A stretch of DNA of 50,745 bases, taken from a virus. Below are positions 10,320-38,866 of this stretch, piece after piece. Below the pieces are notes generated by a model. It did not search any database, was not told the DNA's origin, and worked only from the letters and a program-made list of their open reading frames with translations. The DNA is taken from IMG/VR virus record IMGVR_UViG_3300042965_000080, positions 1-50,745 of that record; one strand, written 5' to 3'. Positions within the stretch are counted from its first letter, which is position 1. Each line of letters opens with the position of its first letter. Made by a program: the position numbers and the translations under genes.

Positions 10320-10348
10320 TATATAAGAAAACCACTGCTAACTTTGAA
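10320..10348 (-). promoter_or_regulatory. Early-type promoter (family copy 1)
   Basis: On the - strand: -35 TTCAAA, 17-nt spacer GTTAGCAGTGGTTTTCT, -10 TATATA. The -35 box overlaps the last codons of the polymerase gene and the polymerase stop codon TAG sits in the spacer. Transcription would serve the UvsY-like, SSB and RecA-like genes. The spacer is conserved in four other copies (13769, 17946, 34133 and 18800). Confidence 0.7.
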
Positions 10349-12542
10349 CACTGCTTTCATAGGTTTCTACCTTCACTTTTATTGGCACATCCAGGTCCCA
10401 GCCATTCTCAATGAAGTCTTTGATACATTGTGGGTCAAAGTCCTCATCCACCTCAAAATAGATTGCGTCGTGAACCTGTGACACAAACCTGAATGCGTCT
10501 GGCAAGGACTTGCCTCTCTCCATGTATATCAACCCCATATCAGTCTGAACTATATCCATTGCAGATGCCTGTATGACAGAGTTGACACTCACATTGAATA
10601 AGTTTTTTCCACTTTCTTCTGAAATCAATACCCACCGTCTCCTACCAAATAGTGATTCCACATAGCCGTGTTCTCTGGCAAATTCATACACTCTTTCCCG
10701 CCACTCTCTTACCACTGAATACTTTTGAAAAAATCTGTTGATAACCCGTTCTGCAGTTGCTTCATCACAATTGAGTGCCCTCGCAAGTGATGGTGCAGTC
10801 AATCCATATACCATGCCAAAGTTTATTGCCTTCGCCTCTCGTCTTGCATTCTCATCAACCTTCCTGTAGTGAAGTATGTCTCTCGCAGTGATTGTATGTA
10901 GGTCTAACCCTTGCTGGAATTCATCAATCATGACAGGGTCTCCTGATACCTGTGCAAGCATCCGCAGTTCAATCTGACTGTAGTCCAATCCAACCAACTT
11001 CTTACCTTTCGGTGCGGTGATAACAGTTCCATACCATCCAGGTGGAAGGTTCTGCAAGTTTGGGTCCGATGAGGCAAGTCTGTGTGTGGGCGTGCCTGTT
11101 ATGTTAAACTTTGACCTTACCCGTCCATCCGGCGACTTACCCGACACTTCCAAAAACCCCTCTACATAGGTAGAAAGGAGTTTGGCAGTATGCCTGTATT
11201 CAAGTATTGTCTTCGCCACTTCATCATTGAACTTCTCTGCAAGGTCAGTTAACACTGCTTCTGAAGTTGACGATATGTTGTGTCCTTTCTTTCTGAAATA
11301 CTCAAGCACCTGTTTTGGTGAGAGTGGATTACCATTGAACCCCAAATCATTCAACTTCGTGGTAAGTTCTGCAGACTTCTGTTGCAGTTTAACTCTTTCT
11401 TCACATAGCAACCCCGTGTTGACATATACACCTGTTTGTTCAATCTCCATCATTGACTTCATGAAATACCTGAACACATTCCACAGGTGTCTCAACTTCT
11501 TTCTGGCATTTATACTCGGTGAAAGGTATTTGTGTAGGCGGTATGAGGCAACTGCATCAAGTCCGTTATAGATATATAGTTCTTTTGGAACACCAAACAA
11601 TGACCTGCTTGTGTTGCTTATTCCATTCCAGCCACCAAACTTTGACAAGAATTCCTGCTTGTATTCACCCATACCTACAAGCATAGTCAGATTGTCAAGT
11701 CCTTTTCTGAATTCTGACCACTCCCAGTGATAGAACACCGCAGTATCACCATGGATGTTTTCTGCAGGAACTTCAACCCTACCAACCTGCTCAAGAACAG
11801 GTATGTCAAAGGCAAGGTTGTGTCCTATAAGTTTTTTGGTTGCCAGTGTTCTTGCGATTTCAGGTGTTAACTTTGATACATACCCTTTGTCAGGTGAGTT
11901 TGAGACTGCAATTGAAACTGGAATGCCATTCACTACTTCAATATCAACTGCGACTACATCCATTTTTTCAATCACCCTTAACATAGTTGTTTCATCTACC
12001 TGCTCAGTATCGGGGTTAAACTTGAATGGAATACCCTTATTGGCAACCTTCAATGCCCTTTTGAGCAAAGGATAGACCTTGTTGCGTAATACATAGGCGG
12101 GGTGGACACTTATGACCACAAGCACTCTTTTGTCTTTGTCAAGGTAATATGCACCTGAAAGACTTGCATGAAACTTGTATGGACTTAATGTTTCAGTTGC
12201 TACTTTTCCAAGCAAAAGAATGACAGGATACTCCTGTGTAAACCTGTAAGTATTCAAGATATATTCCAACTCCTGTTCAAGCAATTCCTTACAACCTTCC
12301 GCAATCCCATACTGGCACTTTATCACATTCGTTATGACCCACTCATCCCTGTTGAGGTAATTGAATAACAATTTACCACTCGGACCTATGAAAGGTTTTC
12401 CTTCTTTCAATTCCTCCTCACCAGGACGCTCGCCCACTATGACACCTTTTATTTGAGAATCCAGTGGTGGTAGTTCTGGCAAAACTTTTCCTCCACAACC
12501 AGGACACCTTGAACACTTCTTGTATAAATCAACTATGTCCAT
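10338..12542 (-). CDS. Family A DNA polymerase with N-terminal uracil-DNA-glycosylase-like and 3'-5' exonuclease domains
   Basis: 734 residues from the ATG with GGAAGG before it; a longer frame starts at a GTG at 12563. Residues 1-170: UDG superfamily (family 4-like) with CSRCPGCGG, GERPGEEELKEGKPFIGPSG, VITNVIKCQYG, PVILLLGKVA and VISVHPAYVLRN. Then the proofreading domain with VDIEVVNG (Exo I), IGHNLAFDIPVL (Exo II) and YNGLDAVASYRL (Exo III). Then polymerase A: GLDYSQIELRMLAQVSGDP (motif A), RREAKAINFGMVYG (motif B), SQVHDAIYFEV (motif C). All catalytic acids are present, so it should be a proofreading replicase. UDG-like N-termini are known in SPO1-type phage polymerases; whether this one excises uracil or only senses it is open. 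Confidence 0.93.
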   Translation of the reverse strand: MDIVDLYKKCSRCPGCGGKVLPELPPLDSQIKGVIVGERPGEEELKEGKPFIGPSGKLLFNYLNRDEWVITNVIKCQYGIAEGCKELLEQELEYILNTYRFTQEYPVILLLGKVATETLSPYKFHASLSGAYYLDKDKRVLVVISVHPAYVLRNKVYPLLKRALKVANKGIPFKFNPDTEQVDETTMLRVIEKMDVVAVDIEVVNGIPVSIAVSNSPDKGYVSKLTPEIARTLATKKLIGHNLAFDIPVLEQVGRVEVPAENIHGDTAVFYHWEWSEFRKGLDNLTMLVGMGEYKQEFLSKFGGWNGISNTSRSLFGVPKELYIYNGLDAVASYRLHKYLSPSINARKKLRHLWNVFRYFMKSMMEIEQTGVYVNTGLLCEERVKLQQKSAELTTKLNDLGFNGNPLSPKQVLEYFRKKGHNISSTSEAVLTDLAEKFNDEVAKTILEYRHTAKLLSTYVEGFLEVSGKSPDGRVRSKFNITGTPTHRLASSDPNLQNLPPGWYGTVITAPKGKKLVGLDYSQIELRMLAQVSGDPVMIDEFQQGLDLHTITARDILHYRKVDENARREAKAINFGMVYGLTAPSLARALNCDEATAERVINRFFQKYSVVREWRERVYEFAREHGYVESLFGRRRWVLISEESGKNLFNVSVNSVIQASAMDIVQTDMGLIYMERGKSLPDAFRFVSQVHDAIYFEVDEDFDPQCIKDFIENGWDLDVPIKVKVETYESSVQS

Positions 12543-13147
12543 AAGCCTTCCAACTCGGCACACGCGGTTTCAAATGCTTTCTGGTCAAGTGAGTGCAGTC
12601 TGGCTCGGTTCAGAAGCATGTCCTTGATTGGTTGTTCTTTTTCTTTCTGGGCAAGCAGGTATGCCTTCACGGCTCCAAACAACCGTTCCATTTCATACCA
12701 GAACCGCTCTTTCTCATCAGTGAAGACTGATGCAATCAGTGCCATGTGCGGGTTGTCAATCACTGGTAGTATCCCGACTTCCGCAACCTTCTTCATAGAA
12801 CCGATTGTGGCACGAATTTTGGTGCTCCACTCAATACCCTTTGCAATTGAGCAGGATGGTTGAGGAAAAGTGTAAACTTTTTCTGGAATATTGTCAGGAG
12901 GCAAGTAAACGGTCAAAGTGGACTGAAACGCATGTGTAAGAAACAACTGGATATCTACTGCATTTTCCCAGTCAAGTATGTGGAGGTTCAAGACACTGCC
13001 TTCAGGGTTGAAGGTATCAATAACATACCCTTTCGGTGAATGAATTGCATTACCAATCACCCTGAATTGCATGTGTCCAAACCGAATGACTGCGTTGTAT
13101 AAGTCAGCGAAGGATTTAGTTACGATTTTTCCAACATACGGCTTCAT
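12533..13147 (-). CDS. Unrecognised replication-operon protein
   Basis: 204 residues. Not recognised. The first half looks like beta strands (KIVTKSFADLYNAVIRFG, GSVLNLHILDWENAVDIQLF) and the second half helical with a charged end (LLAQKEKEQPIKDMLLNRAR). It overlaps the polymerase start by 10 bp and follows the Cys-motif gene by three bases, so it is translated together with replication proteins. No metal or nucleotide-binding motif is visible. There is no good ribosome site before the ATG, which fits translational coupling. Confidence 0.6.
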   Translation of the reverse strand: MKPYVGKIVTKSFADLYNAVIRFGHMQFRVIGNAIHSPKGYVIDTFNPEGSVLNLHILDWENAVDIQLFLTHAFQSTLTVYLPPDNIPEKVYTFPQPSCSIAKGIEWSTKIRATIGSMKKVAEVGILPVIDNPHMALIASVFTDEKERFWYEMERLFGAVKAYLLAQKEKEQPIKDMLLNRARLHSLDQKAFETACAELEGLWT

Positions 13148-18867: not shown

Positions 18868-19869
18868 ATGAGGATACAAACACAGTTGATAGGTCGTGAG
18901 AGGGAATTCACCGCTCTGCTTGTCGCAGAGCGGCTGAGGGTTCCCATTCTCCTTGTAGGGGAGGTAGGGACAGGAAAAACCCAGTTGTTTCTTGACTATG
19001 CTTCCTCCAGAATCCTGGAGGAAGGAGACCCTGCTGGAAACGGCAAAATCTTTTTGAAACAATTGAGTTTTGATACAAGGGCGGAGGAAGTTCTGGGATG
19101 GATTTCAATTCCAGAGTTCAGGAAAGGAAAAGTGGTAAGAATTGGTGGAATTGCGGAAGCGGAGTATATCTTGTTAGACGAGATTGACAAAGCGAACTCC
19201 GCTGTCAGGAATTTGTTTCTTTCTGTATTGAGGGAAAGGAAGTTGTTTGATGGTGAGAAGGTAGTTCCGTGTAAGTGGAAGCTTCTTGTCGGAACTTCAA
19301 ATAGGAAGGAATTTGATGAAGACGATATGGCATTCATAGATAGGTTTGTGTTGAAGGTTACAATGACCAGGGTTGGATTACCACTTGCAGACCGTTTGTT
19401 AGAACTAAATGAGAACGAGAACGAAGTTGTGATTGAGGAATTGAGGAACTTTGAGCCTTCCATCAGGAGTATCAAGGAGAAGGTGAAGAACCTCCTTCCA
19501 GACATATACGAGAAGGTGTCTGACAGGACACTTACCTGGATAGTCTCTGTTGCATATGAATTTGCGAAGTTCTATGGTGAAAATAAAGGAATATTGTGTG
19601 CATTTGAGTATTGTGTTTCTCCTGAAGTTGCTGTGCAGTTATCAGAGCGGTTGATTACCAAACATCCATTGTTGAAGGAGGCTGAGCAGTTGGTCAAGGA
19701 TTATAAACAAGCGACTGAAGATGAGACAAGAGTTATGCTTGCAGGCAAGGCAGTAGAATTGGTAAAGCAGGCAAGAATGCTTGCAAAAGACGACCCGCAA
19801 ACGGCAAAGGAAGTTGTTACAATCTTGCGTCCAATAGTAGAAGGAGGGAGTAGCAATGAAGAAAATTGA
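18868..19869 (+). CDS. MoxR-type AAA+ ATPase
   Basis: 333 residues with GTAGGAGGTGAAAC before the ATG. Walker A LLVGEVGTGKTQLFLDYA, Walker B EYILLDEIDKANSAVRN, sensor 1 KLLVGTSNRKEF, and an Arg finger region in DDMAFIDRFVLKVTM. The layout matches MoxR/RavA ATPases, chaperone-like machines that work with a VWA-domain partner. The next gene encodes that partner and overlaps by 14 bp. It is the first gene of the rightward early operon. In cells such pairs load metals or remodel complexes; in a phage the target is unknown, perhaps a host complex or a replication factor. Confidence 0.85.
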   Translation: MRIQTQLIGREREFTALLVAERLRVPILLVGEVGTGKTQLFLDYASSRILEEGDPAGNGKIFLKQLSFDTRAEEVLGWISIPEFRKGKVVRIGGIAEAEYILLDEIDKANSAVRNLFLSVLRERKLFDGEKVVPCKWKLLVGTSNRKEFDEDDMAFIDRFVLKVTMTRVGLPLADRLLELNENENEVVIEELRNFEPSIRSIKEKVKNLLPDIYEKVSDRTLTWIVSVAYEFAKFYGENKGILCAFEYCVSPEVAVQLSERLITKHPLLKEAEQLVKDYKQATEDETRVMLAGKAVELVKQARMLAKDDPQTAKEVVTILRPIVEGGSSNEEN

Positions 19870-21373
19870 TGATAAGAGATTTGAGAAGCTGAAGAAGCAA
19901 AGTCTTGATATTGGGACTCACTACATAAGCGACGCAGTTTTGAAGTGGTTGTTCAAATTCACACCTTATAACTGGATTGAAGACCTTAAAGTTCTTTCAG
20001 ATGCAGAGAAGGTTTTTGAGGAGAGGGAGGGACGATATGTTCCATATAATCTTGTGAGGGATGTATATCGGTTTCTGTCTGGTAGGGTTGGAAAGGTGAG
20101 GGTTACCCCTGAGAATTACTGGGTTTATGAGCTGGTCATAAGTAATCCCCAGTTTAGGGAATTGTGCCAATTGACGGAGGGGAGGGATATTCCAGCAAAA
20201 ATAGTCATGCAGATGATTGTGGCGAAACTTGTGCTCTATGGAATTCTTAAACGAATGAAATCCCTTCCTTCACCAGCTCTTCAGAAAACAGAGGCTAAGA
20301 ATGTTCTTGGACTTGATTCAGATTTACCTGCCAGCAGCGAAGAGCAAAGACAAGACCCCAGTTCTGGTGAAGTTGAAACTGAAATGATGGACGACACTAA
20401 TGCATCTGCGGAAGGGAGTGAGAACATCCATAATGAAAATGAAGCATGTGCAGGTGATGGAACAGGAACTCATAATGGAAGTGAGAACAATGACACCACC
20501 TATGATTATAAGCATTCTCATTCTGATAATGGAATAAACAGCACAGGAACTAAGGAAGTTATGACTTTCATACCATTTGATAAAGACACCATGGAGAAAA
20601 TTGATGCAATATCAACCGAGGTGTCCAGAGTTTGTAAGGAGATGAAAGAGTTCGTGAAGAAGCATCTCGCATCTACACAAGGTGGGTTGTTTGGTGGTGT
20701 AAAAATGACCCGTCAAGCAGAGATAATTAAGGTTGATATACCGAGGAAATGTCTGAGAAAGATAAACAGGGTTGTCAGGAATGTGTATGGTGAATATCTG
20801 ACAGATGAATGGACAATAGTCAAATCACCAGTTCCAGACCCAGCTGACCCAGAATTGCTTGAAGAAGATTTGGCAAGCCTGAAAGTCTTGGAGGCAGGGT
20901 TTCTCGGGAGGGAAAGGAGGGCAAGGATGAAGTTGGATATCTATTTGGATGTCAGCGGCAGTATGAGTGATTTGTTTCATTACTATGCGAGGGAAAGAAA
21001 GGAAGTTATGAAGGTAGACATAGCATTCAGTATCCTAAAGGCACTTTTGAACCTCGGTATGAAGATTGACAAGTTGTTCTTATTCAACACAAAGGTGTGG
21101 GAGGAGAGGTTAGAAGATGCAATCAAGTATTATCCCACTGGAGGCACCGCATTTCTGAAAGTTGCACAGAAAATAAAGGAACGAAGGCGTCCCTCTCTTG
21201 TGATATCAGATATGGAAGCGGGTGAAGGCAACATTACCGCACAGGACAGGAAATGGTTGCGGTTCATAAAGCCGAATGCATACTATATTGGGATAATAAC
21301 ATCAAGATTTCCAGACTGGATAGGGGAATATTTCAAATGCATTTACAAGATTGAAGCAGAAAAGGAGGATTGA
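19856..21373 (+). CDS. VWA-domain protein, MoxR partner (CoxE/ViaA-like)
   Basis: 505 residues with GAAGGAGGGAGTAGCA before the ATG. N-terminal 140 residues are helical; a long low-complexity linker (about 140-235, Ser/Asn/Glu/Thr-rich) follows, then a helical segment. The VWA domain starts near 360: KLDIYLDVSGSMSD is the MIDAS DxSxS, TGGTAF supplies the MIDAS Thr, and VISDMEAGEGN the Asp. The fold binds metal and protein ligands. The pairing with a MoxR ATPase is as in bacterial RavA-ViaA and related sets. The disordered linker is long for this family. Confidence 0.8.
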   Translation: MKKIDDKRFEKLKKQSLDIGTHYISDAVLKWLFKFTPYNWIEDLKVLSDAEKVFEEREGRYVPYNLVRDVYRFLSGRVGKVRVTPENYWVYELVISNPQFRELCQLTEGRDIPAKIVMQMIVAKLVLYGILKRMKSLPSPALQKTEAKNVLGLDSDLPASSEEQRQDPSSGEVETEMMDDTNASAEGSENIHNENEACAGDGTGTHNGSENNDTTYDYKHSHSDNGINSTGTKEVMTFIPFDKDTMEKIDAISTEVSRVCKEMKEFVKKHLASTQGGLFGGVKMTRQAEIIKVDIPRKCLRKINRVVRNVYGEYLTDEWTIVKSPVPDPADPELLEEDLASLKVLEAGFLGRERRARMKLDIYLDVSGSMSDLFHYYARERKEVMKVDIAFSILKALLNLGMKIDKLFLFNTKVWEERLEDAIKYYPTGGTAFLKVAQKIKERRRPSLVISDMEAGEGNITAQDRKWLRFIKPNAYYIGIITSRFPDWIGEYFKCIYKIEAEKED

Positions 21374-25293: not shown

Positions 25294-25806
25294 ATGACTG
25301 ACATACAAGCAGAAGTAAAAAGGTTTGGGCTGAAAGGTGTCAAAGAGTTGACAGGCAGGGAAGTGTATTTACTTGCTTCAAGGTGTTTCTATGCATTGAG
25401 GCACAAACTTAAGATAGGACCTGGTGACCGAATCCTGATTGCAGGTATTCCTGATGGCGGTAAATGGTTTGCAAGGTTCTTGTTTGAGAAATTCAGCAAG
25501 CAACTCCCGCTTATGGTATGGTTGGCACATTCTGAGTTCAAGGCACCGATGTATACACCGTCTGATGCAGCTATGATGGTTAAGATGTTAGGTGCTACGA
25601 TTGTTGTGATTGTGGATGACATAATTGAGACTGGTGGAACAATGAACAGGTGGGTTGAAATGCTACGGCAAGTTGATGCAAGGATTGTAGGTGTAGCATT
25701 GCTCAAAAGAGGCAAGAAGGCAAAATTGAAGTATCCGAGGCAGGTTGTTGTTGGTAAGACAATTTATAACCAGAAGTATATTGTGTTTCCGTGGGAGAAG
25801 GAATGA
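25294..25806 (+). CDS. Phosphoribosyltransferase-like protein
   Basis: 170 residues with GAAGGGAGGTAGGTC before the ATG. The PRPP-binding signature is VVIVDDIIETGGTMNRW (about 104-120), and the PP-loop region is ILIAGIPDGGKWFARF. The fold is type I PRTase, like xanthine/hypoxanthine or orotate PRTases. The hood region is short. It could salvage bases or act on modified purines. It overlaps the methylase gene by 4 bp, directly upstream of the 7-deazaguanine cluster, so a link to base handling is plausible but unproven. Confidence 0.75.
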   Translation: MTDIQAEVKRFGLKGVKELTGREVYLLASRCFYALRHKLKIGPGDRILIAGIPDGGKWFARFLFEKFSKQLPLMVWLAHSEFKAPMYTPSDAAMMVKMLGATIVVIVDDIIETGGTMNRWVEMLRQVDARIVGVALLKRGKKAKLKYPRQVVVGKTIYNQKYIVFPWEKE

Positions 25807-26681
25807 GAAGTCCAATTCGGTATTACGGAGGGAAAGGACAAATGACAAAGAAGTTGCTCCAATTTATTCCCAGACACCACACCTATGTGGAGGTATTTGG
25901 AGGCAGTGCTTCAATCCTTCTTGCCAAGCCACCCTCACCAGTAGAAGTTTACAACGATGTTGACGGCGACCTTGTCAATTTATTTCGTGTTATCCGGGAC
26001 CCTGAGAAGTTCAAGGAATTTCACAGGCAAGTTTCATTGATACCTTATTCAAGGGAAGAATTTAAGTATTATAGAAAGTTAGAGCCTAAAAATGACATTG
26101 AAAGGGCGGTGAAAACTTTTGTTCTTTTCAGGCAGTCAATGAACGGAATTAACAGTTGCTGGGGTTATACTATAAAGGAAAGCTGGCGAGGAATGGCAGG
26201 TCCTGTAAGTGAATATCTTTCTATAATAGATGAACTTCCTTTAATCCATCAAAGACTTTTCAAGGTTCAGATTGAGAACGATGATTTCAGAAAAGTTATT
26301 CCTCGTTATGATTATGAAGATGCCTTTTTCTATAATGACCCCCCATATATACCAGAGACAAGGCGTCAAGGAAAGTATGAATATGAAATGACACTTGAAG
26401 ACCATAAGGATTTAGTGGAATTGTTATTGAGCATTAAGGGTTCAGCAATGCTTTCTTGTTATTACCATCCTATCTATGAACCCCTTGTTAAGGCGGGCTG
26501 GCAGAGAAAGGATTTTCAAGTAGTATGCTTTGCGGTTGTCAGGGCAAGGAATTCAGGACTTCAAGGTGAAGGAGCGTTATTGGAAAAACAGCCTCGCACC
26601 GAGACAATCTTAATAAAATACAATGAAAAACATAGATCCTATACTCTTTTTGACCTCAAAAAAAGTCATGAAAGCCTATAA
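25803..26681 (+). CDS. dam: DNA N6-adenine methyltransferase (D12/Dam class)
   Basis: 292 residues from the ATG in the overlap with the phosphoribosyltransferase, after GGGAGAAGGA. MRSPIRYYGGKGQMTKKLL is the Dam-family start, YVEVFGGSASILLAKP is the SAM motif I, NDVDGDLVNLFRVI follows, and FYNDPPYIP is catalytic motif IV (NDPPY). The family methylates adenine, often in GATC. The gene is more AT-rich than its neighbours (AAA, TTT, CTT codons), suggesting recent acquisition. The only GATC I found in the window lies near its 3' end (26635-26638), so the real target site is uncertain. Confidence 0.85.
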   Translation: MRSPIRYYGGKGQMTKKLLQFIPRHHTYVEVFGGSASILLAKPPSPVEVYNDVDGDLVNLFRVIRDPEKFKEFHRQVSLIPYSREEFKYYRKLEPKNDIERAVKTFVLFRQSMNGINSCWGYTIKESWRGMAGPVSEYLSIIDELPLIHQRLFKVQIENDDFRKVIPRYDYEDAFFYNDPPYIPETRRQGKYEYEMTLEDHKDLVELLLSIKGSAMLSCYYHPIYEPLVKAGWQRKDFQVVCFAVVRARNSGLQGEGALLEKQPRTETILIKYNEKHRSYTLFDLKKSHESL

Positions 26682-26811
26682 AATCATCATAGTTTCAGAC
26701 CATAGACCCCCTGAATTCAAAAGAAAGATAAAAAAGCAAGGGTATAAGTTCTGGAAGTATGGAATAGTAGCGAACAGAGAAGTAGAATTATGGAAAAAAA
26801 GAATTGACTAG
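26668..26811 (+). CDS. Small basic protein, uncertain
   Basis: 47 residues; ATG at 26668 overlaps the methylase end by 14 bp. A longer frame to 26623 would overlap more and lacks a ribosome site. The sequence (AYKIIIVSDHRPPEFKRKIK) looks like a short alpha/beta unit with a basic helix. AT-rich like the methylase, so it may have come in with it. Confidence 0.4.
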   Translation: MKAYKIIIVSDHRPPEFKRKIKKQGYKFWKYGIVANREVELWKKRID

Positions 26812-26819
26812 CGAACTAA

Positions 26820-27560
26820 ATGTGTTATTATCTAATTGTGGCAAGAGCACCATCTGACAGATTACTCAACTCAACCACACTCAAGGTAATTGAGTTGTTT
26901 CAGTCGTTTCAGGGTGAAGGACAGCGGGTTGGCACACCAACTATCTTCTTGAGGCTTGCAGGTTGTAATCTGCAGTGTCAATTCTGTGATACCACTTATG
27001 CGAGGGATGGTAGCAGGAAGGCAGAAGTAGTTAGTATCAGGGACATTGTTGCAGAACTATTCGGTATGGGGTTGAGCAAGCACTCACCTTACGACCTGTG
27101 TATTACTGGTGGTGAGCCATTATTGCAGAAAAAAGGTGTTGAGTTATTGGTGAAGACGCTGCAGAGCACAGGGTTTCCGCTTCTACGGATAAACATACAG
27201 ACGAATGGCACAATCCCTGTAGAACCTTCTTCAATTCTATCAATGACATACATTGCAGTGTCACCAAAACCGCCGAAGTATGAATTGAATGTGAGTATGT
27301 GGGGTGAACTGAAAATTGTAATCCCAGTTGATGCTTATGAGAATGTGTTTGTTGACTTAATCAAAAAAATGTGTTATCCCTGTGTGAAGGAGTTGATGGC
27401 GGGTATGCGTGCAGTATTCTTACAACCTGTTTCAGTGAAAGTTGGCGATAACTGGATGGTCTCAGATGTTGCATACAGAAAAGCAGTGCGAATCAGCAGG
27501 TTACTGACATTCCCGGTCAGGGTATTACCGCAGGTGCACAGGTTGGTAGGATGGCAATAG
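26820..27560 (+). CDS. queE: QueE, 7-carboxy-7-deazaguanine synthase (radical SAM)
   Basis: 246 residues if the ATG at 26820 is used; a GTG at 26838 is in frame and no clear ribosome site favours either. IELFQSFQGEGQRVGTPTIF is the QueE start, LAGCNLQCQFCDTTYARDG holds the CxxxCxxC cluster for the 4Fe-4S centre, then ITGGEPLLQ and VSPKPPK. QueE converts 6-carboxytetrahydropterin to 7-carboxy-7-deazaguanine. It heads the modification cluster and overlaps the QueD-like gene by 10 bp. A weak TTGACT/TATTAT promoter pair lies just upstream. Confidence 0.92.
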   Translation: MCYYLIVARAPSDRLLNSTTLKVIELFQSFQGEGQRVGTPTIFLRLAGCNLQCQFCDTTYARDGSRKAEVVSIRDIVAELFGMGLSKHSPYDLCITGGEPLLQKKGVELLVKTLQSTGFPLLRINIQTNGTIPVEPSSILSMTYIAVSPKPPKYELNVSMWGELKIVIPVDAYENVFVDLIKKMCYPCVKELMAGMRAVFLQPVSVKVGDNWMVSDVAYRKAVRISRLLTFPVRVLPQVHRLVGWQ

Positions 27561-27925
27561 TGTTTGAAAAAGAAATTGTAGTTTCAGTTTATGTTTCTGG
27601 AATTCACTACTACATGGGTGCGAAGGAGCCTGTAGAGTTTTTGAAACATCCACACCAACACTTATTCAGAATCACGGTTAGTGTAATTGAGTCAGCTGAC
27701 AGGCAGATAGAGTTCTTTATGTTTCGGCAGGAACTTCTTGACCTGCTCAACCGGACCTTTGAGAGGGATAGGTTGGGGGCATTTCAGTTTGGCAACCGTA
27801 GTTGTGAGTCAATTGCAACTACAATATGTGAAGAATTACTGAGGCTGAGATATAGTGTGAAACAAGTGGCAGTATTTGAAGACAACGAGGTTGGTGCAAT
27901 AGTGAAGCCGATAGATGTAAAATGA
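27551..27925 (+). CDS. QueD-like 6-pyruvoyltetrahydropterin synthase family protein, divergent
   Basis: 124 residues, start overlapping the queE stop. The T-fold pattern is present: zinc His in SGIHYYMG and HPHQHLFRITV (HxH), NRSCESIATTICEELLRLRY like the NPTSE...W helix, and VFEDNEVGAIV for the substrate Glu. The Cys normally four residues before HxH is Leu, and the LDH motif (Asp-His) is not visible. So the zinc site is kept while the usual catalytic triad is not. Context strongly implies the 6-carboxytetrahydropterin step; chemistry may differ or the host enzyme may be needed. Confidence 0.7.
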   Translation: MAIVFEKEIVVSVYVSGIHYYMGAKEPVEFLKHPHQHLFRITVSVIESADRQIEFFMFRQELLDLLNRTFERDRLGAFQFGNRSCESIATTICEELLRLRYSVKQVAVFEDNEVGAIVKPIDVK

Positions 27926-28953
27926 GACTCTTTTATGTGCCAATTGAACCATACCCGAACCGTTACTCTGAGCAGTGGATAAGGTGGTTTGAAGCAGGAT
28001 TCAAAAGACGGCAGATTGATTATAAAATTGTATTTGGCAAGTCCCTCAATACTGCAGTATCTATTGGCTCTGTGTTCAACCCTGTGTCAATCTCACACTA
28101 CAGGGCAACACAACTTGTTAGAATACACAAACTTGTAGCAAAAGGCATTCTGAGGAATGGTGATGTCATTTTCTTTGATGATGGTCAGTTTCCTGGTGTA
28201 GAACAGATTGCACAATACCTTCCGCAGATTGGATACTACAATGTCAGGTTGTATTCATTTATGCATGCGGGCACCTGGGACAAGCATGACTATGTTCACA
28301 GGTTCAATCTTGTTCCTTGGTTGTTCTGGGAGGAGCAGGCATGGTTCAACATATTCGAGAAAGTGTTTGTTGCAACACGATTCCACAGAGACTTGATTAC
28401 CAAACAATTTCCGCAGTATGCAGACAAAGTGGTTGTAACAGGTGAACCATTCAATACAGATGAGATACTATCACAGGTTAAACACATTCCTGACTTCAAA
28501 CACCGCAGGTGGGACATAGTGTATCCATGGCGGGTTGATACTGAGAAAGGCATTACCGAGTTTATGCAACTCGTGCAACGCATTAGTAGAACACTCAGAC
28601 GACCAGTCAGTTATACTATTCCAGTAGTGGAGAACAGGAGTAAACGGGAATACTATGAGATACTTGCAAACAGTAAGATTGTATTGAGTGCCGCAAAACA
28701 GGAGACCTTTGGAATTGCAGTTGCAGAAGCAGTTGTGTTAGGCTGTATCCCAGTGTTACCAAACGCATTATCGTATGCGGACATTTATCCATATGAATAC
28801 CTTTATGACTCAACCGCAGATGCAGTTAGTAAAGTGTGTAAGTTCCTCCTGTTGAATGAAGGTATGTGGCAGAAACGACATAGAGATTTACTGCGGATTG
28901 TGAGTCAGTTCAACCATAGTATTGACCGAATACTTACACAGATGGGGTTTTGA
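27922..28953 (+). CDS. GT4-like glycosyltransferase (GT-B fold)
   Basis: 343 residues, ATGA overlap with the QueD-like gene. The C-terminal Rossmann domain has YYEILANSKIVLSAAKQETF then GIAVAEAVVLGCIPVLPN, the E-x7-E motif and neighbouring loop of GT4 enzymes that bind the nucleotide-sugar. YPWRVDTEKGITEF is the usual start of the second domain. It should transfer a sugar from a nucleotide donor. Its place inside a 7-deazaguanine cluster suggests the acceptor is the modified base in DNA (GT4-family enzymes glycosylate queuosine in animal tRNA), but a virion or cell-surface acceptor is not excluded. Confidence 0.75.
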   Translation: MRLFYVPIEPYPNRYSEQWIRWFEAGFKRRQIDYKIVFGKSLNTAVSIGSVFNPVSISHYRATQLVRIHKLVAKGILRNGDVIFFDDGQFPGVEQIAQYLPQIGYYNVRLYSFMHAGTWDKHDYVHRFNLVPWLFWEEQAWFNIFEKVFVATRFHRDLITKQFPQYADKVVVTGEPFNTDEILSQVKHIPDFKHRRWDIVYPWRVDTEKGITEFMQLVQRISRTLRRPVSYTIPVVENRSKREYYEILANSKIVLSAAKQETFGIAVAEAVVLGCIPVLPNALSYADIYPYEYLYDSTADAVSKVCKFLLLNEGMWQKRHRDLLRIVSQFNHSIDRILTQMGF

Positions 28954-29852
28954 TGGATTATCACACATACTCATTCATTGACTTACCTGCTATCTATCAG
29001 GTGGAACTTGTCGGTGGTGTATGTCAGTTGAAGTGTTCGTATTGTCCTGTGTCAAAAGGTGAGGTTCCAAGACGGAACCGCTATTTTGATTTTAACTTAT
29101 TAAAAGAGATGTTCAGGCGTGGTGATTTTGAGCACACATTCTATTTTGAATTACACATGTATGGTGAGAGTATGTTGCATCCGCAGTTTGAAACAATTGT
29201 TGGCTGGTTGAAGTCAAATGTGAAACAACTCATAGGGTTAAGCACGAACCTTATAGAGTTCAGTGAGTGTCTGAACCTGTTTGATGCACTCACAATAAGT
29301 TGTGACACACAGAGTTACAGAAAAGGACGCAACTTTGACATATTCCGTATGAACCTTGAGAAACTCTTCAAAATCCGCAGGGACAAGCCGATTGACATTC
29401 AGTTTGTTGAGTGTGTGAATCCTGACGACGAGTTAGTAGAAGTGCAAAAGTTTGTTAGCTCACTCATAGAAAAGTATAATAACAGGAATGTGATAGTTCG
29501 GAGTGCACCTGAGTGTTTCACCCAATCGGTTGACTTGACTTTACTCCATTCCGACCCCTGTATCAATCCTTTTATTTCGGTTTCAATCCAGTCAGATGGC
29601 GATGTGGTATCCTGTTGTTTCTGTTGGGACAAGTCATACCCGAATGTGTATGGCAACATACTTGACACTACCTTATCAGAAGTGTGGCAACATTCCGAAA
29701 CTCGCAGAGTGTTATTGAGTCACATTTCAGGAGAAGGGATGGTGTTGACTGGTAAGTGTTCAGAGTGTTTAGTGCATAGTCCCGCACTTCTGCACTGGCG
29801 GTTTCTTTGCAACTATGCTAAAATAGGTATGATGAGGTTTGGCACAAGATGA
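28953..29852 (+). CDS. Radical SAM protein with SPASM-like C-terminus
   Basis: 299 residues, ATG overlapping the glycosyltransferase stop. VELVGGVCQLKCSYCPVSKG carries the CxxxCxxC cluster. GESMLHPQFE and LSTNLIEF fit the radical SAM barrel. The C-terminal region has SDPCINPFISVSIQSDGDVV then SCCFCWD, and GKCSECLVHSPALL, the Cys pattern of SPASM domains that hold extra Fe-S clusters. SPASM enzymes modify peptides, sugars or nucleobases. The reaction is unknown. It sits between glycosyltransferase and folE, so a further step on the base or its sugar is plausible. Confidence 0.8.
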   Translation: MDYHTYSFIDLPAIYQVELVGGVCQLKCSYCPVSKGEVPRRNRYFDFNLLKEMFRRGDFEHTFYFELHMYGESMLHPQFETIVGWLKSNVKQLIGLSTNLIEFSECLNLFDALTISCDTQSYRKGRNFDIFRMNLEKLFKIRRDKPIDIQFVECVNPDDELVEVQKFVSSLIEKYNNRNVIVRSAPECFTQSVDLTLLHSDPCINPFISVSIQSDGDVVSCCFCWDKSYPNVYGNILDTTLSEVWQHSETRRVLLSHISGEGMVLTGKCSECLVHSPALLHWRFLCNYAKIGMMRFGTR

Positions 29853-30424
29853 GGGTGAACAAAGAAGGTGTTAAACGGGCTATTCGGCAACTGATTGTGG
29901 CACTCGGCTACAATCCTGAGTCTCAGGGGTTGAGAGACACGCCGAAACGGGTTGCAAAGTTCTATGCCGACTGGTTCAAACAGAGTAAGTTTGAGTGGCG
30001 TGAATTCGATGCATTCAATTACAGGAATATGGTAATTGTCCGGCGAATACCTTTTTTCAGTCTCTGTGAGCACCACCTTTTGCCATTCTTTGGATGGATA
30101 CACATTGGTTACATCCCGTCGGGACGTAGAGCCAAAATCGTAGGTATCTCAAAACTTGTCCGTATAGTCAGGTTAGTTTCCGTCGGATTGAACACACAGG
30201 AAGTAATAACACAGCGGATTGTTGATGAATTACAGAAACGCGGTATCAGGGATTGTATTGTTGTTGTGGAAGCGATACACACCTGTATGGCATTGAGGGG
30301 TGTGCAGGTTGGATTCAACACATCGGTATCCACTTCAGCCATAAGCGGTGTATTCACGGAGATAGCACCGCGGGCAGAATTTCTGAGTGTTATCGGGTTA
30401 CCAAATCCGTTAGGCAATAGGTGA
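29849..30424 (+). CDS. folE: GTP cyclohydrolase I
   Basis: 191 residues, ATGA overlap with the radical SAM gene. LGYNPESQGLRDTPKRVAKF, IPFFSLCEHHLLPFFG (zinc Cys73, His76), ISKLVRIVRLVS, QEVITQRIVDEL, IHTCMALRGVQ (third zinc ligand Cys146) are all present in order. It makes dihydroneopterin triphosphate from GTP, the first step to both folate and 7-deazaguanines. In phages carrying queD, queE and dpdA, folE increases supply of the precursor. Length is normal for FolE. Confidence 0.95.
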   Translation: MRVNKEGVKRAIRQLIVALGYNPESQGLRDTPKRVAKFYADWFKQSKFEWREFDAFNYRNMVIVRRIPFFSLCEHHLLPFFGWIHIGYIPSGRRAKIVGISKLVRIVRLVSVGLNTQEVITQRIVDELQKRGIRDCIVVVEAIHTCMALRGVQVGFNTSVSTSAISGVFTEIAPRAEFLSVIGLPNPLGNR

Positions 30425-30430
30425 AAAACA

Positions 30431-31459
30431 ATGAAAGTGTATCTCGCATCAATTGGTAGTATAGATGGTATGCATAAAATCTTTATTGCGGATGATGGTG
30501 TAGAAGCGAGGATTCTGTTTTCTGCATTCAAGTTGTTTCCACTCACATCCAATAATAACAAACCAAGTAGGACTCAACGCCACAGATTGTCAGCGATTGA
30601 GTCATTCCTGAGTGGTTTGTATAGTAAATGGGGACGCATTGATTGGTTTCTTGATTCAGGGGCATTCAGTTTTCAGATGTTGTATGCACGGAAGCAGGTA
30701 TTGTATTCAGTTTCAGTTTACGAACGGTATTTAGTGAGTTATCTTGAGTGGATATCGGATTTGCCTGAACGTCTGCGACCATCTGTGGTAGTTGAGTTAG
30801 ACCTTCAGAACCTGTTGCCATACAGGGAGATTGAACGGTGGCGGTTACACTATTTCCTGCCATTCCAGAAAGAAACAGGTATTCCTGTTATCTTCGCAAT
30901 AAGGCCGCAGACATACGAGGCAGATGTTGAGTTTGTGTTTGGCAACTCCGCAGTGCGATACTTTGCAACTTCAGCACTTACCGCAGCGTTGAACACGGAG
31001 AATGCGATTGATACCACAGTGAGTCTCACATACAGGGGTTATGCAGAAGGGAAGCGTATGCACGGGTTTGCATCAATCAAACCGAGCCTTCTGCTCAGAA
31101 TTCCTTACTACTCGGTTGACTCTATTTCCTGGGCTATGCCCCTTTTTTATGGTAAAGTATTGAAGTGGGATAATCAATCTGGCAGGTTCAAAAGTGCAAG
31201 GGTTGGAACTCGTGGCAAGAGTAAACCCCACGATGGTAATGTCTTGCTGGAGGCGTTGAAACTCAATGACGACATCATCGTTAGAACAATACTTACCAAA
31301 AAGAGACGAAGCGGTGTAGATGCCTGGGTTAGACCATTGCGTAAGTCTATTATGGCATACAAGGAATTAGAGCAATGGTATACAGCTTACTGGAAGAAGA
31401 AGGGTATTGACTGGGACAGGGTTGATAATGAAAGCAAAGATAAAGAGGCAACCGTGTGA
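30431..31459 (+). CDS. dpdA: DpdA-like DNA-guanine transglycosylase
   Basis: 342 residues. TGT-like TIM-barrel features: WFLDSGAFSFQ (about 72-82) for the first conserved Asp, a central IPVIFAIRPQ strand, then MHGFASIKPSLLLRIPYYSV followed by DSISW (about 210-234), the second Asp that attacks the base in phage DpdA enzymes. DpdA swaps guanine in DNA for a 7-deazaguanine such as preQ0 or preQ1. The other genes of the pathway surround it, which supports the call strongly. No RNA-binding PUA domain of tRNA TGT is visible. Confidence 0.8.
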   Translation: MKVYLASIGSIDGMHKIFIADDGVEARILFSAFKLFPLTSNNNKPSRTQRHRLSAIESFLSGLYSKWGRIDWFLDSGAFSFQMLYARKQVLYSVSVYERYLVSYLEWISDLPERLRPSVVVELDLQNLLPYREIERWRLHYFLPFQKETGIPVIFAIRPQTYEADVEFVFGNSAVRYFATSALTAALNTENAIDTTVSLTYRGYAEGKRMHGFASIKPSLLLRIPYYSVDSISWAMPLFYGKVLKWDNQSGRFKSARVGTRGKSKPHDGNVLLEALKLNDDIIVRTILTKKRRSGVDAWVRPLRKSIMAYKELEQWYTAYWKKKGIDWDRVDNESKDKEATV

Positions 31460-36833: not shown

Positions 36834-38438
36834 TACTGATGTTCTGGCGCTCTGTAATGGTGTTTGTCTGGTCAATCCCAATACTGCGTATGCGAGACAA
36901 TGCAATAGGTGGTCATCACCACTTTTGACAACCTCCTCCATGATGCCTGTTTCATCTTCCTGTTCAAGTATGAATACATTTTCAACATGACGTTTCAGCA
37001 ACCTGCCCTGCTCATTCAGTTCACTGAGGTTCAATAATAACTTCTGGTCAAGTAATTGTTTCAGGTATTTTATGAGGGCAACTTTTGCAATTTGCACAAC
37101 ACCAGTGTTATTGTTCCATTCTGGTGAGAATGTCTTTATGCGGCGTCTCGCATAGAAACAACCCCACACCTTTTTTCCGAATACACTTCGTAGATACTCA
37201 ATCCTGTCTATGCCCCACCCACTGTCCGCAACAATTATGTCGGGATTGTATGGTAATAGTTTTTCTGTGAGCGCTTTCACGCCACCCAGTGGTTCCGAAG
37301 TGTCAGGTGAGTAAAGCACTGATAACACTTGGATATGCCCCCTGATTGTCTTTCCAATCACCACTGCCCAGTTCACCTTGCCCCAGTCGATACCAACTGC
37401 AACTGATTGAACATCAGGTGGTTTCCCAGGCTTTGGTAATTCACCAGAACTATGTATTGTCAGTGTGGTGCCTTCTTCCTTGAATGGTTCACCCAATACA
37501 TAGTTATACCAGATTGACCGCAGTTTGTAGCGTTGCACCGACAATACTATCTGGTTGGCACTAATCCACGGTGCCATCAGTTGTGTGAAATGGTAGCCTC
37601 TCACATCTTTCACTGATGGATTTTCAGCAACCCATTCACCATCCTCAAGTCTGGTGAGTTTCCGTTTACACTTTCTACACCCGATAATGAATGTGTCCTC
37701 CTCCAGTTCGGTGATTTCACCAGAAAGTATCAGCCGCATAAGGTCTTCTGAACCCTTTGTCTGTATCACATTATCCTTGTAGGTTAAATACTGCCACTCA
37801 CCACAGTGTTCACACTTGATAAACCATTTCCGTCTGTCTGACATCGCATACTCATTGCTTATACCTACCCCTGGTAGTGTAGGTGTGGATATGAACCGTT
37901 TCCAGCCGAAGTGTGAAGCCTTGAGTGATTCCTCAAATGCAGGTAATACATCCTTGCGCATCCTGTCATACTCATCAAAATAGATTATGTCCGCATCAGT
38001 CGCCTCACCGAATTCTTCCTCCCAGGTGGACTTGATTTCAACAAATACCCTGTTCCCTGCTGGTGTATCAAAGCGTTTCATTCCTGCACTTGATTCCCTT
38101 ATCATGCTACTCAATAGTGGTGATGATTGTATAGCAGGGTCAAACCGCGTCTTGCTGAATTCACTGCTTTGCCTGCCTCTCGGAAAACAATACACTATTT
38201 TCAATGACACATCGGGAACACTTACTAACCATCCAATCTCAATTATACTTACTTCAGTAAGCCCTAACTGCCTTGCCTTCAGTGCCACCTTGTATGGGTG
38301 AAGGTCATTGAGATACCCGACAAGGAATGGACGGTATTGTCGCAGGTCTTCTGTGTTGTAGAACCGCACAGGACGATTCCTGACGAACCAGTGTTTCAGT
38401 GCCCAGTTTGAGGGGATTAGGTATTCATCTACTTGCAC
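36816..38438 (-). CDS. terL: Terminase large subunit
   Basis: 540 residues from a GTG overlapping the queF stop. The ATPase has a Walker A-like KARQLGLTEVS (54-64) and Walker B IIYFDEYDRM. Two CxxC pairs (CEHCGEWQ, CRKCKRKL) form a zinc module as in gpA-type terminases. The RNase H-like nuclease has VGIDWGKVNWAVVIG and IVADSGWG. It cuts concatemers and pumps DNA through the portal. Its operon runs opposite to the head genes, with queF upstream, portal and HD protein downstream. The usual Lys of Walker A is not in a classical GKT loop, as in many TerL. Confidence 0.88.
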   Translation of the reverse strand: MQVDEYLIPSNWALKHWFVRNRPVRFYNTEDLRQYRPFLVGYLNDLHPYKVALKARQLGLTEVSIIEIGWLVSVPDVSLKIVYCFPRGRQSSEFSKTRFDPAIQSSPLLSSMIRESSAGMKRFDTPAGNRVFVEIKSTWEEEFGEATDADIIYFDEYDRMRKDVLPAFEESLKASHFGWKRFISTPTLPGVGISNEYAMSDRRKWFIKCEHCGEWQYLTYKDNVIQTKGSEDLMRLILSGEITELEEDTFIIGCRKCKRKLTRLEDGEWVAENPSVKDVRGYHFTQLMAPWISANQIVLSVQRYKLRSIWYNYVLGEPFKEEGTTLTIHSSGELPKPGKPPDVQSVAVGIDWGKVNWAVVIGKTIRGHIQVLSVLYSPDTSEPLGGVKALTEKLLPYNPDIIVADSGWGIDRIEYLRSVFGKKVWGCFYARRRIKTFSPEWNNNTGVVQIAKVALIKYLKQLLDQKLLLNLSELNEQGRLLKRHVENVFILEQEDETGIMEEVVKSGDDHLLHCLAYAVLGLTRQTPLQSARTSVLTISL

Positions 38439-38866
38439 TTCTTTTCAGGATACCTTGCAGAGGCGATTGTTTGGATTCCTCCCCTTGGTGTGAACTCTAT
38501 CCTTACTTCCATCCATTCCGGGTTCACAAGTGTGGAAAGGTCTTCTAAAATTCTTGCAACTGCATGTTCATTTATTATCCCGACATTTCTGAATGAGAGT
38601 AAATAGAACTTGAGTGATTTCAGTTCAATGACTTTGTTTGAAGGCAAGTAGGTGATTGTCAGTTTTCCAAAGTCAGGAAGACCTGTCCATGGACACAAAC
38701 ATGTGAATTCATTGGTGGTGTAGGTGATTTCAACTTTCTTCTTTTCTGTATAGGGAATCGCCTTCAGGACAGATGAGTCAATTCTGTCCTTTCTGGACTT
38801 CACTTCTTTTTTGTAAGTTTCTTTCAACCCTTCAAAAAACTCATTCAGTTTGTTTTTTCCTTTCAT
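38429..38866 (-). CDS. queF: QueF, preQ0 reductase (NADPH-dependent)
   Basis: 145 residues. EFTCLCPWTGLPDFGKLTI contains the catalytic Cys (LCPWTG) and Asp (PDF). VIELKSLKFYLLSFRNVGII then NEHAVARIL is the QueF NADPH and substrate motif, with the conserved Glu. EFTPRGGI closes the fold. Length fits the short, unimodular QueF (YkvM type). It reduces 7-cyano-7-deazaguanine (preQ0) to preQ1. It is 7 kb away from the queE-dpdA cluster and leads the terminase operon, so expression may be timed with packaging. Its promoter is weak. Confidence 0.92.
   Translation of the reverse strand: MKGKNKLNEFFEGLKETYKKEVKSRKDRIDSSVLKAIPYTEKKKVEITYTTNEFTCLCPWTGLPDFGKLTITYLPSNKVIELKSLKFYLLSFRNVGIINEHAVARILEDLSTLVNPEWMEVRIEFTPRGGIQTIASARYPEKKCK

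Follow-up and report, generated by a model that had tools for sequence, protein, structure and literature searches.

A phage 7-deazaguanine gene cluster with a GT4-type glycosyltransferase and a radical SAM enzyme: a predicted DNA-hypermodification module

Related systems and the gene cluster under study

Several 7-deazaguanine modifications of phage DNA have been described, including dG+ in phage 9g and dPreQ0 in phage CAjan (Hutinet 2019, PMC6884629), and the deazaguanine system of phage PA5oct has also been described (PMC7824862). A related gene cluster was identified in the IMG/VR virus record IMGVR_UViG_3300042965_000080, whose 50,745 bases, taken as a whole, are referred to below as the window. 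The plus strand of the window carries, in this order, genes encoding QueE, a QueD-like protein (QueDl), a GT4-type glycosyltransferase (GT), a radical S-adenosylmethionine enzyme (rSAM), FolE and DpdA (Table 1). The cluster shares FolE, QueE, a 9g-type DpdA, QueF and a presumed anti-restriction role with the known phage systems, whereas the GT4 enzyme, the rSAM, the QueD paralogue lacking a cysteine and a phosphoribosyltransferase are additions, and QueC was not found. The operon is proposed, with a probability of about 0.72, to be a phage DNA-hypermodification module in which DpdA inserts a 7-deazaguanine, the GT adds a sugar, and the rSAM makes the handle for the sugar or tailors the sugar itself.

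A glycosylated product is not described among the 7-deazaguanine systems of PMC6884629. A search of the open literature, which did not cover subscription papers, found no report of glycosylated 7-deazaguanine in DNA. Eight 7-deazaguanine derivatives of phage DNA, none of them glycosylated, were reportedly listed by Cui et al. in 2023.

The α- and β-glucosyltransferases of phage T4 resemble the predicted system in transferring a sugar to a modified base of phage DNA. Their acceptor is hydroxymethylcytosine, whereas the acceptor here would be derived from guanine; the nearest folds of the window GT are bacterial GT4 enzymes, and no match to the T4 GT families was found in Pfam or PHROGs. QTMAN, an animal queuosine glycosyltransferase, is of the GT4 type. 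The animal enzymes QTMAN/GTDC1 and QTGAL also attach a sugar to a 7-deazaguanine derivative, but they act on tRNA, whereas the window GT is linked to a DNA transglycosylase and gave no Pfam match to the QTMAN-type N-terminal domain. Both galactosyl- and mannosyl-queuosine are known from animal tRNA (PMC12518689). The pairs MshA/MshB, BshA/BshB and PIG-A/PIG-L each combine a GT4 enzyme with an LmbE/PIG-L deacetylase; the window GT shares the GT4 fold but is not paired with a deacetylase, and its predicted acceptor is DNA or a base.

Linkage of the glycosyltransferase to 7-deazaguanine genes

From QueE through FolE every adjacent gene pair overlaps, and DpdA begins after a gap of 6 bp. Plus-strand open reading frames, family searches and motifs agree with the initial annotation, which had described a queE-to-dpdA order joined by overlaps or short gaps. 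That annotation had also assigned the GT and the rSAM to a 7-deazaguanine DNA pathway; comparative linkage supports this assignment, and the glycosylated base in DNA stays a prediction.

In INPHARED, the GT occurs in 20 of 50,697 records, 16 of which also carry the QueDl gene, a gene present in just 27 of the 50,697 (co-occurrence, about 2.6e-16 after lineages were collapsed). Five of the six phage lineages with the GT have it within 7-deazaguanine clusters. These are five unrelated groups (BUCT-ZZ01, Phosso, the PA5oct group, X1 and ACP17), in which the GT gene lies inside a QueE/FolE/QueD cluster that mostly also holds DpdA or a DpdA-like gene. The sixth group (PhiXhv/Ep032) has its GT outside such clusters. 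A scan with the GT of phage PhiXhv-12 as a negative-control family returned zero matches, and the background control therefore rests on the INPHARED counts.

The GT is encoded at no fewer than 590 places in IMG/VR, this and the following IMG/VR counts being taken from the matches listed. By profile hidden Markov models (HMMs) made in this analysis, of the 28 listed loci of at least 15 kb, some of which are closely related to one another, QueDl is present in 28, DpdA in 27, FolE in 25, QueE in 24 and the phosphoribosyltransferase in 20. All 123 GT-QueDl pairs among the listed loci share a strand, and in 31 of them the two genes are at most 20 bp apart. In genome contigs, DpdA lies beside the GT in 10 of 11 loci; among these are contigs from Magnetospirillum and Sulfitobacter, some as long as 1.4 Mb. 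Homologues found always in virion-surface modules without dpdA had been named as evidence against the proposal; the phage isolates, the IMG/VR loci and the genome-contig loci present the opposite picture.

The Magnetospirillum (L185, L187-L190) and Sulfitobacter (L186) loci, in which the GT adjoins DpdA, lie on contigs of bacterial genome assemblies and are read here as the system in a chromosomal or prophage setting; the Magnetospirillum loci also contain QueDl and QueD, and some of the contigs exceed 400 kb. Synechococcus phage BUCT-ZZ01 has a second GT4-like gene in the same deazaguanine cluster (L002:5004-6347).

Properties of the glycosyltransferase

The window GT scores slightly under the Pfam cut-off for Glycos_transf_1 (25.5 versus 26.4 bits), with an intact EX7E motif, and shares 22-31% identity with its relatives. 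Residues R204, K209 and E269 are invariant in the family alignment and E261, the first glutamate of EX7E, is nearly so; E269 closes the motif. All seven GTs, once aligned, differed too much for patterns to be scanned. The structural model, for which the alignment was built from IMG/VR rows only, has a predicted local distance difference test (pLDDT) score of 94 and confidently adopts a GT-B GT4 fold matching the retaining enzymes MshA, BshA and PimA. Its best structural match is the GT of Acidovorax phage ACP17 (template modelling score, 0.86). In the tree, read without regard to branch support, the window GT clusters with those of loci carrying 9g-type DpdA, and its nearest relative is the GT of locus L105.

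Radical SAM enzymes

The window rSAM has a SPASM domain, a CX3CX2C motif at residues 25-32 and twitch-like auxiliary cysteines at positions 204, 222, 270 and 273. Its best PDB sequence match is BtrN, a radical SAM/twitch dehydrogenase of an aminocyclitol with a presumably similar spacing of auxiliary-cluster cysteines, but the match is insignificant (E = 0.15). Only distant SPASM matches to the window rSAM were found in 50 records of GT or QueD-like phages, one of them (L011) within a GT-DpdA operon. This operon has the order QueD-QueE-FolE-QueDl-rSAM-hypothetical-PIG-L deacetylase-GT2-like-GT4-DpdA, and its SPASM rSAM is 25% identical to that of the window. As a query, the L011 enzyme matched itself alone.

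A third, unrelated rSAM of the B12 type is encoded in L105. Used as a lone query, it returned 31 loci, and the order QueD-QueE-FolE-QueDl-rSAM-GT-DpdA is present in all 17 of those of at least 14 kb (about 13 distinct). Weak NCBIfam relatives of this enzyme include P-methyltransferases and the aminoglycoside diol-dehydratase AprD4. GT-rSAM-DpdA operons recur (L011 and the 17 B12-type loci); the window's own rSAM is rare, other rSAM families taking its place elsewhere. The place beside the GT is thus repeatedly occupied by an rSAM, though of different families, a pattern consistent with tailoring of the handle or the sugar, and two orphan rSAM families now have a working context. A further rSAM of about 285 amino acids adjoins QueE on the opposite strand in several GT phages (L059:11010-11858, L076, L144 and L148).

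QueD-like protein

The initial annotation had called this protein queD-like. The QueD fold stands (the model, with a pLDDT of 94, is closest to E. coli QueD), whereas the protein is not a canonical QueD. Its Pfam PTPS score is below the cut-off (17.3 versus 22.4 bits). Like E. coli QueD, which is a 6-carboxytetrahydropterin (CPH4) synthase, QueDl has a T-fold and in alignments keeps the three zinc histidines and the base-binding glutamate near the C-terminus, but it lacks the catalytic cysteine before the HxH zinc motif; this position is leucine in the window, and a cysteine is not conserved in the family. Of 25 records tested, 18 encode canonical QueD alongside QueDl, the five complete isolates among them, and QueDl is therefore regarded as a paralogue with a job of its own. 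A role as a mere replacement for QueD was rejected because canonical QueD coexists with it in most GT phages. QueDl is also present where there is no GT, Cellulophaga phage phiST being one case. A decarboxylase of 7-carboxy-7-deazaguanine (CDG), DpdL, was reportedly predicted for such phages by Cui et al. in 2023, and identity of QueDl with DpdL is a tentative lead. The family phrog_17812 now has a working context.

Enzymes of base synthesis and exchange

The window QueE contains both the CX3CX2C and GGEP motifs, and FolE keeps the CEHH and cysteine zinc ligands. DpdA matches phrog_887 (E = 2.5e-10) and keeps both catalytic-aspartate motifs (LDSGAFS and SVDSISW). As a lone query it gave no match in IMG/VR and one weak phage match; an HMM of the window DpdA and its relatives matches the DpdA of phage 9g at 6.7e-49, and the assignment to the 9g type was made with this HMM where the single-sequence search had failed. 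The queF gene mentioned in the initial annotation is real, although it lies outside the cluster range given there, on the minus strand. QueF carries the active-site cysteine motif CPWTGLPD and the NADPH motif ELKSLKFY, of the pattern E(S/L)K(S/A)hK(L/Y)(Y/F/W).

Neither QueC nor canonical QueD was found in the 50.7-kb fragment. All five complete GT isolates contain canonical QueD and lack both QueC and QueF, and only 1 of 30 records gave a QueC match over the cut-off, a weak one. Because QueC and QueF are absent, the isolates' own genes stop at CDG plus the step of QueDl. The window phage, with QueF and host preQ0, could supply preQ1, the amine of which would be an obvious acceptor.

Proposed pathway and alternative explanations

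In the proposed pathway, FolE, QueE and a QueD supplied by the host or encoded beyond the fragment would make CDG, which QueDl and, in the window phage, QueF would process further. DpdA would exchange the processed base for guanine in DNA, and the GT4 enzyme would then move a sugar from a nucleotide-sugar onto the C7 side group of the base. The rSAM may create the acceptor group or tailor the sugar, and the phosphoribosyltransferase probably salvages the guanine released by DpdA. The resulting guanine analogue, bulky and carrying a sugar, would be expected to block restriction by the host as well as other defences that target DNA. The analysis shows the gene order, family identities, folds, catalytic motifs and repeated linkage of GT, QueDl, rSAM and DpdA; the acceptor, the sugar, the order of the steps and DNA, rather than free base or tRNA, as the glycosylated target are predicted from the genes and their linkage.

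Several points weigh against this pathway. The explanation is weakest on the acceptor group; in the complete relatives, which lack QueC, CDG offers only a carboxylate. The window rSAM is nearly unique, with no close relative in IMG/VR, GTDB genome contigs or INPHARED. Small molecules and surface glycans are frequent substrates of GT4 enzymes. Because the window covers a fragment of a phage genome, little can be concluded from the genes it lacks.

Three alternative explanations were considered. The GT may glycosylate the free base or nucleotide first, DpdA then inserting the glycosylated base. This order is consistent with the closest solved folds of the GT model (MshA, BshA, SenB and LmbT), which belong to enzymes acting on small molecules, and with the nearly constant proximity of the GT to QueDl, presumably an enzyme of the free base; however, DpdA would need to accept a much larger base, and known phage DNA glucosylations come after replication; glycosylation before insertion appears unlikely. 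Slightly less likely still, the GT and the rSAM may make or alter a glycan of the virion or host surface, their genes simply happening to sit next to those for deazaguanine. Surface modules of phages commonly contain GT4 genes, sugar-nucleotide genes lie near some copies, and no deazaguanine gene lies within 8 kb of the related GT of PhiXhv-12. Against this, linkage to DpdA and QueDl persists over unrelated phages, bacterial-assembly contigs and gene orders, and in the window the GT and rSAM genes overlap translationally with the QueDl gene and FolE; surface glycosylation is considered improbable because of the DpdA linkage. Glycosylation of 7-deazaguanine in tRNA, for which the GT4-type queuosine glycosyltransferases of animals and the shared use of FolE, QueE and QueF in queuosine synthesis could be cited, is the least probable of the three because the transglycosylase is a 9g-type DpdA whose prototype acts on DNA, and the window contains no tRNA genes and, in the Pfam scan, no queuosine-specific or QTMAN family.

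What was noticed on a single contig holds for a GT family with hundreds of members, which is predicted to carry out a variant of 7-deazaguanine DNA modification. We lean slightly towards the broader reading that this is a widespread, undescribed class of viral DNA, in which the dedicated GT4 family glycosylates a 7-deazaguanine derived from CDG independently of QueC, and in which rSAM and sugar-tailoring enzymes (epimerase, PIG-L deacetylase, LicD and cytidylyltransferases) produce lineage-specific glycans on guanine. If so, with a DpdA-tied GT family in no fewer than 590 viral contigs, glycosylated guanine would rank beside the glucosylated cytosine of T4 as a major modification of phage DNA, and this would bear on restriction, on CRISPR and on defences that depend on modification. 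GT-bearing isolates are already in hand, namely Pseudomonas phages of the PA5oct/Paride type, Acidovorax phage ACP17, Xanthomonas phage X1, Synechococcus phage BUCT-ZZ01 and Sinorhizobium phage Phosso.

Gene layout and neighbouring genes

Genes for an SPO1-like terminase (about 35% identity), a portal protein and a major head protein are also present in the window. The features of the cluster and its surroundings are listed in Table 1.

Table 1. Coordinates of the 7-deazaguanine cluster and associated genes in the window
Feature	Position	Strand	Evidence
Phosphoribosyltransferase, probable guanine/xanthine salvage partner	25294..25806	+	PF00156, E 9e-13
DNA adenine methyltransferase of the D12 class, probably a separate modification gene	25803..26681	+	PF02086, 74.8 bits
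QueE, CDG synthase	26820..27560	+	phrog_2076, E 1.4e-34; TIGR03963, E 1.7e-26; CX3CX2C
QueD-like protein (QueDl), T-fold	27551..27925	+	phrog_17812, E 1.5e-15; alignments; model
GT4-type retaining glycosyltransferase, phage family tied to dpdA	27922..28953	+	EX7E, R204, K209; model; relatives in dpd clusters
Radical SAM enzyme with SPASM/twitch domain	28950..29852 (start 28950/28953)	+	PF13186, 39.3 bits; PF04055, weak
FolE, GTP cyclohydrolase I	29849..30424	+	PF01227, 165.5 bits; zinc-site motifs
DpdA, DNA-guanine transglycosylase of phage 9g type	30431..31459	+	phrog_887; HMM; catalytic Asp motifs
QueF-type reductase (preQ0 to preQ1), adjoins terminase gene	38429..38866	-	PF14489, 100 bits over cut-off; CPWTGLPD, ELKSLKFY

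A phosphoribosyltransferase and a methylase had been noted just upstream of the cluster; the D12 methylase gene and the phosphoribosyltransferase gene before it share an ATGA overlap. The phosphoribosyltransferase probably belongs to the system; an HMM built from the phosphoribosyltransferases of GT phages, with the window seed left out, matches it at 5.5e-11. The methylase probably does not, and it was rejected as a module member since it is absent from other GT loci.

Sugar genes are found near some copies of the GT. In 11 loci the start of an NAD-dependent epimerase gene is no more than 28 bases from the GT, cytidylyltransferases are present in 18 GT loci, and about 20 hold ADH together with Gfo/Idh genes. 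L011, X1 and PhiXhv-12 have a PIG-L-like gene as partner of the phage GT, and in L025 a gene fusing a nucleoside triphosphate (NTP)-transferase to an aminotransferase, together with LicD, adjoins the GT. These neighbours fit phage-specific decorated sugars. The window operon itself contains no sugar genes, and the window phage would use a host nucleotide-sugar.

The segment from QueDl to the GT in L025 (2598-10233) holds genes for a methyltransferase, the NTP-transferase/aminotransferase fusion, Gfo/Idh, ADH and LicD. The fusion recalls aminoethylphosphonate activation, and a phospho- or phosphono-decoration of the DNA sugar is possible. A recurrent family of small proteins (about 130-170 amino acids, without a Pfam match) is encoded between the GT and either DpdA or FolE, with examples at L005:7513-7941, L006:6305-6703, L011:6143-6610 and L075:4623-5141; proteins of the L075 type occur in 46 GT loci, and the other members are similar by eye only. 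Elsewhere in the window, positions 10338-12563 encode a DNA polymerase A of 741 amino acids with an N-terminal uracil-DNA-glycosylase-like domain, and positions 18868-21373 encode a MoxR-type AAA ATPase followed by a protein of 505 amino acids that resembles a vWA partner (without a Pfam match).

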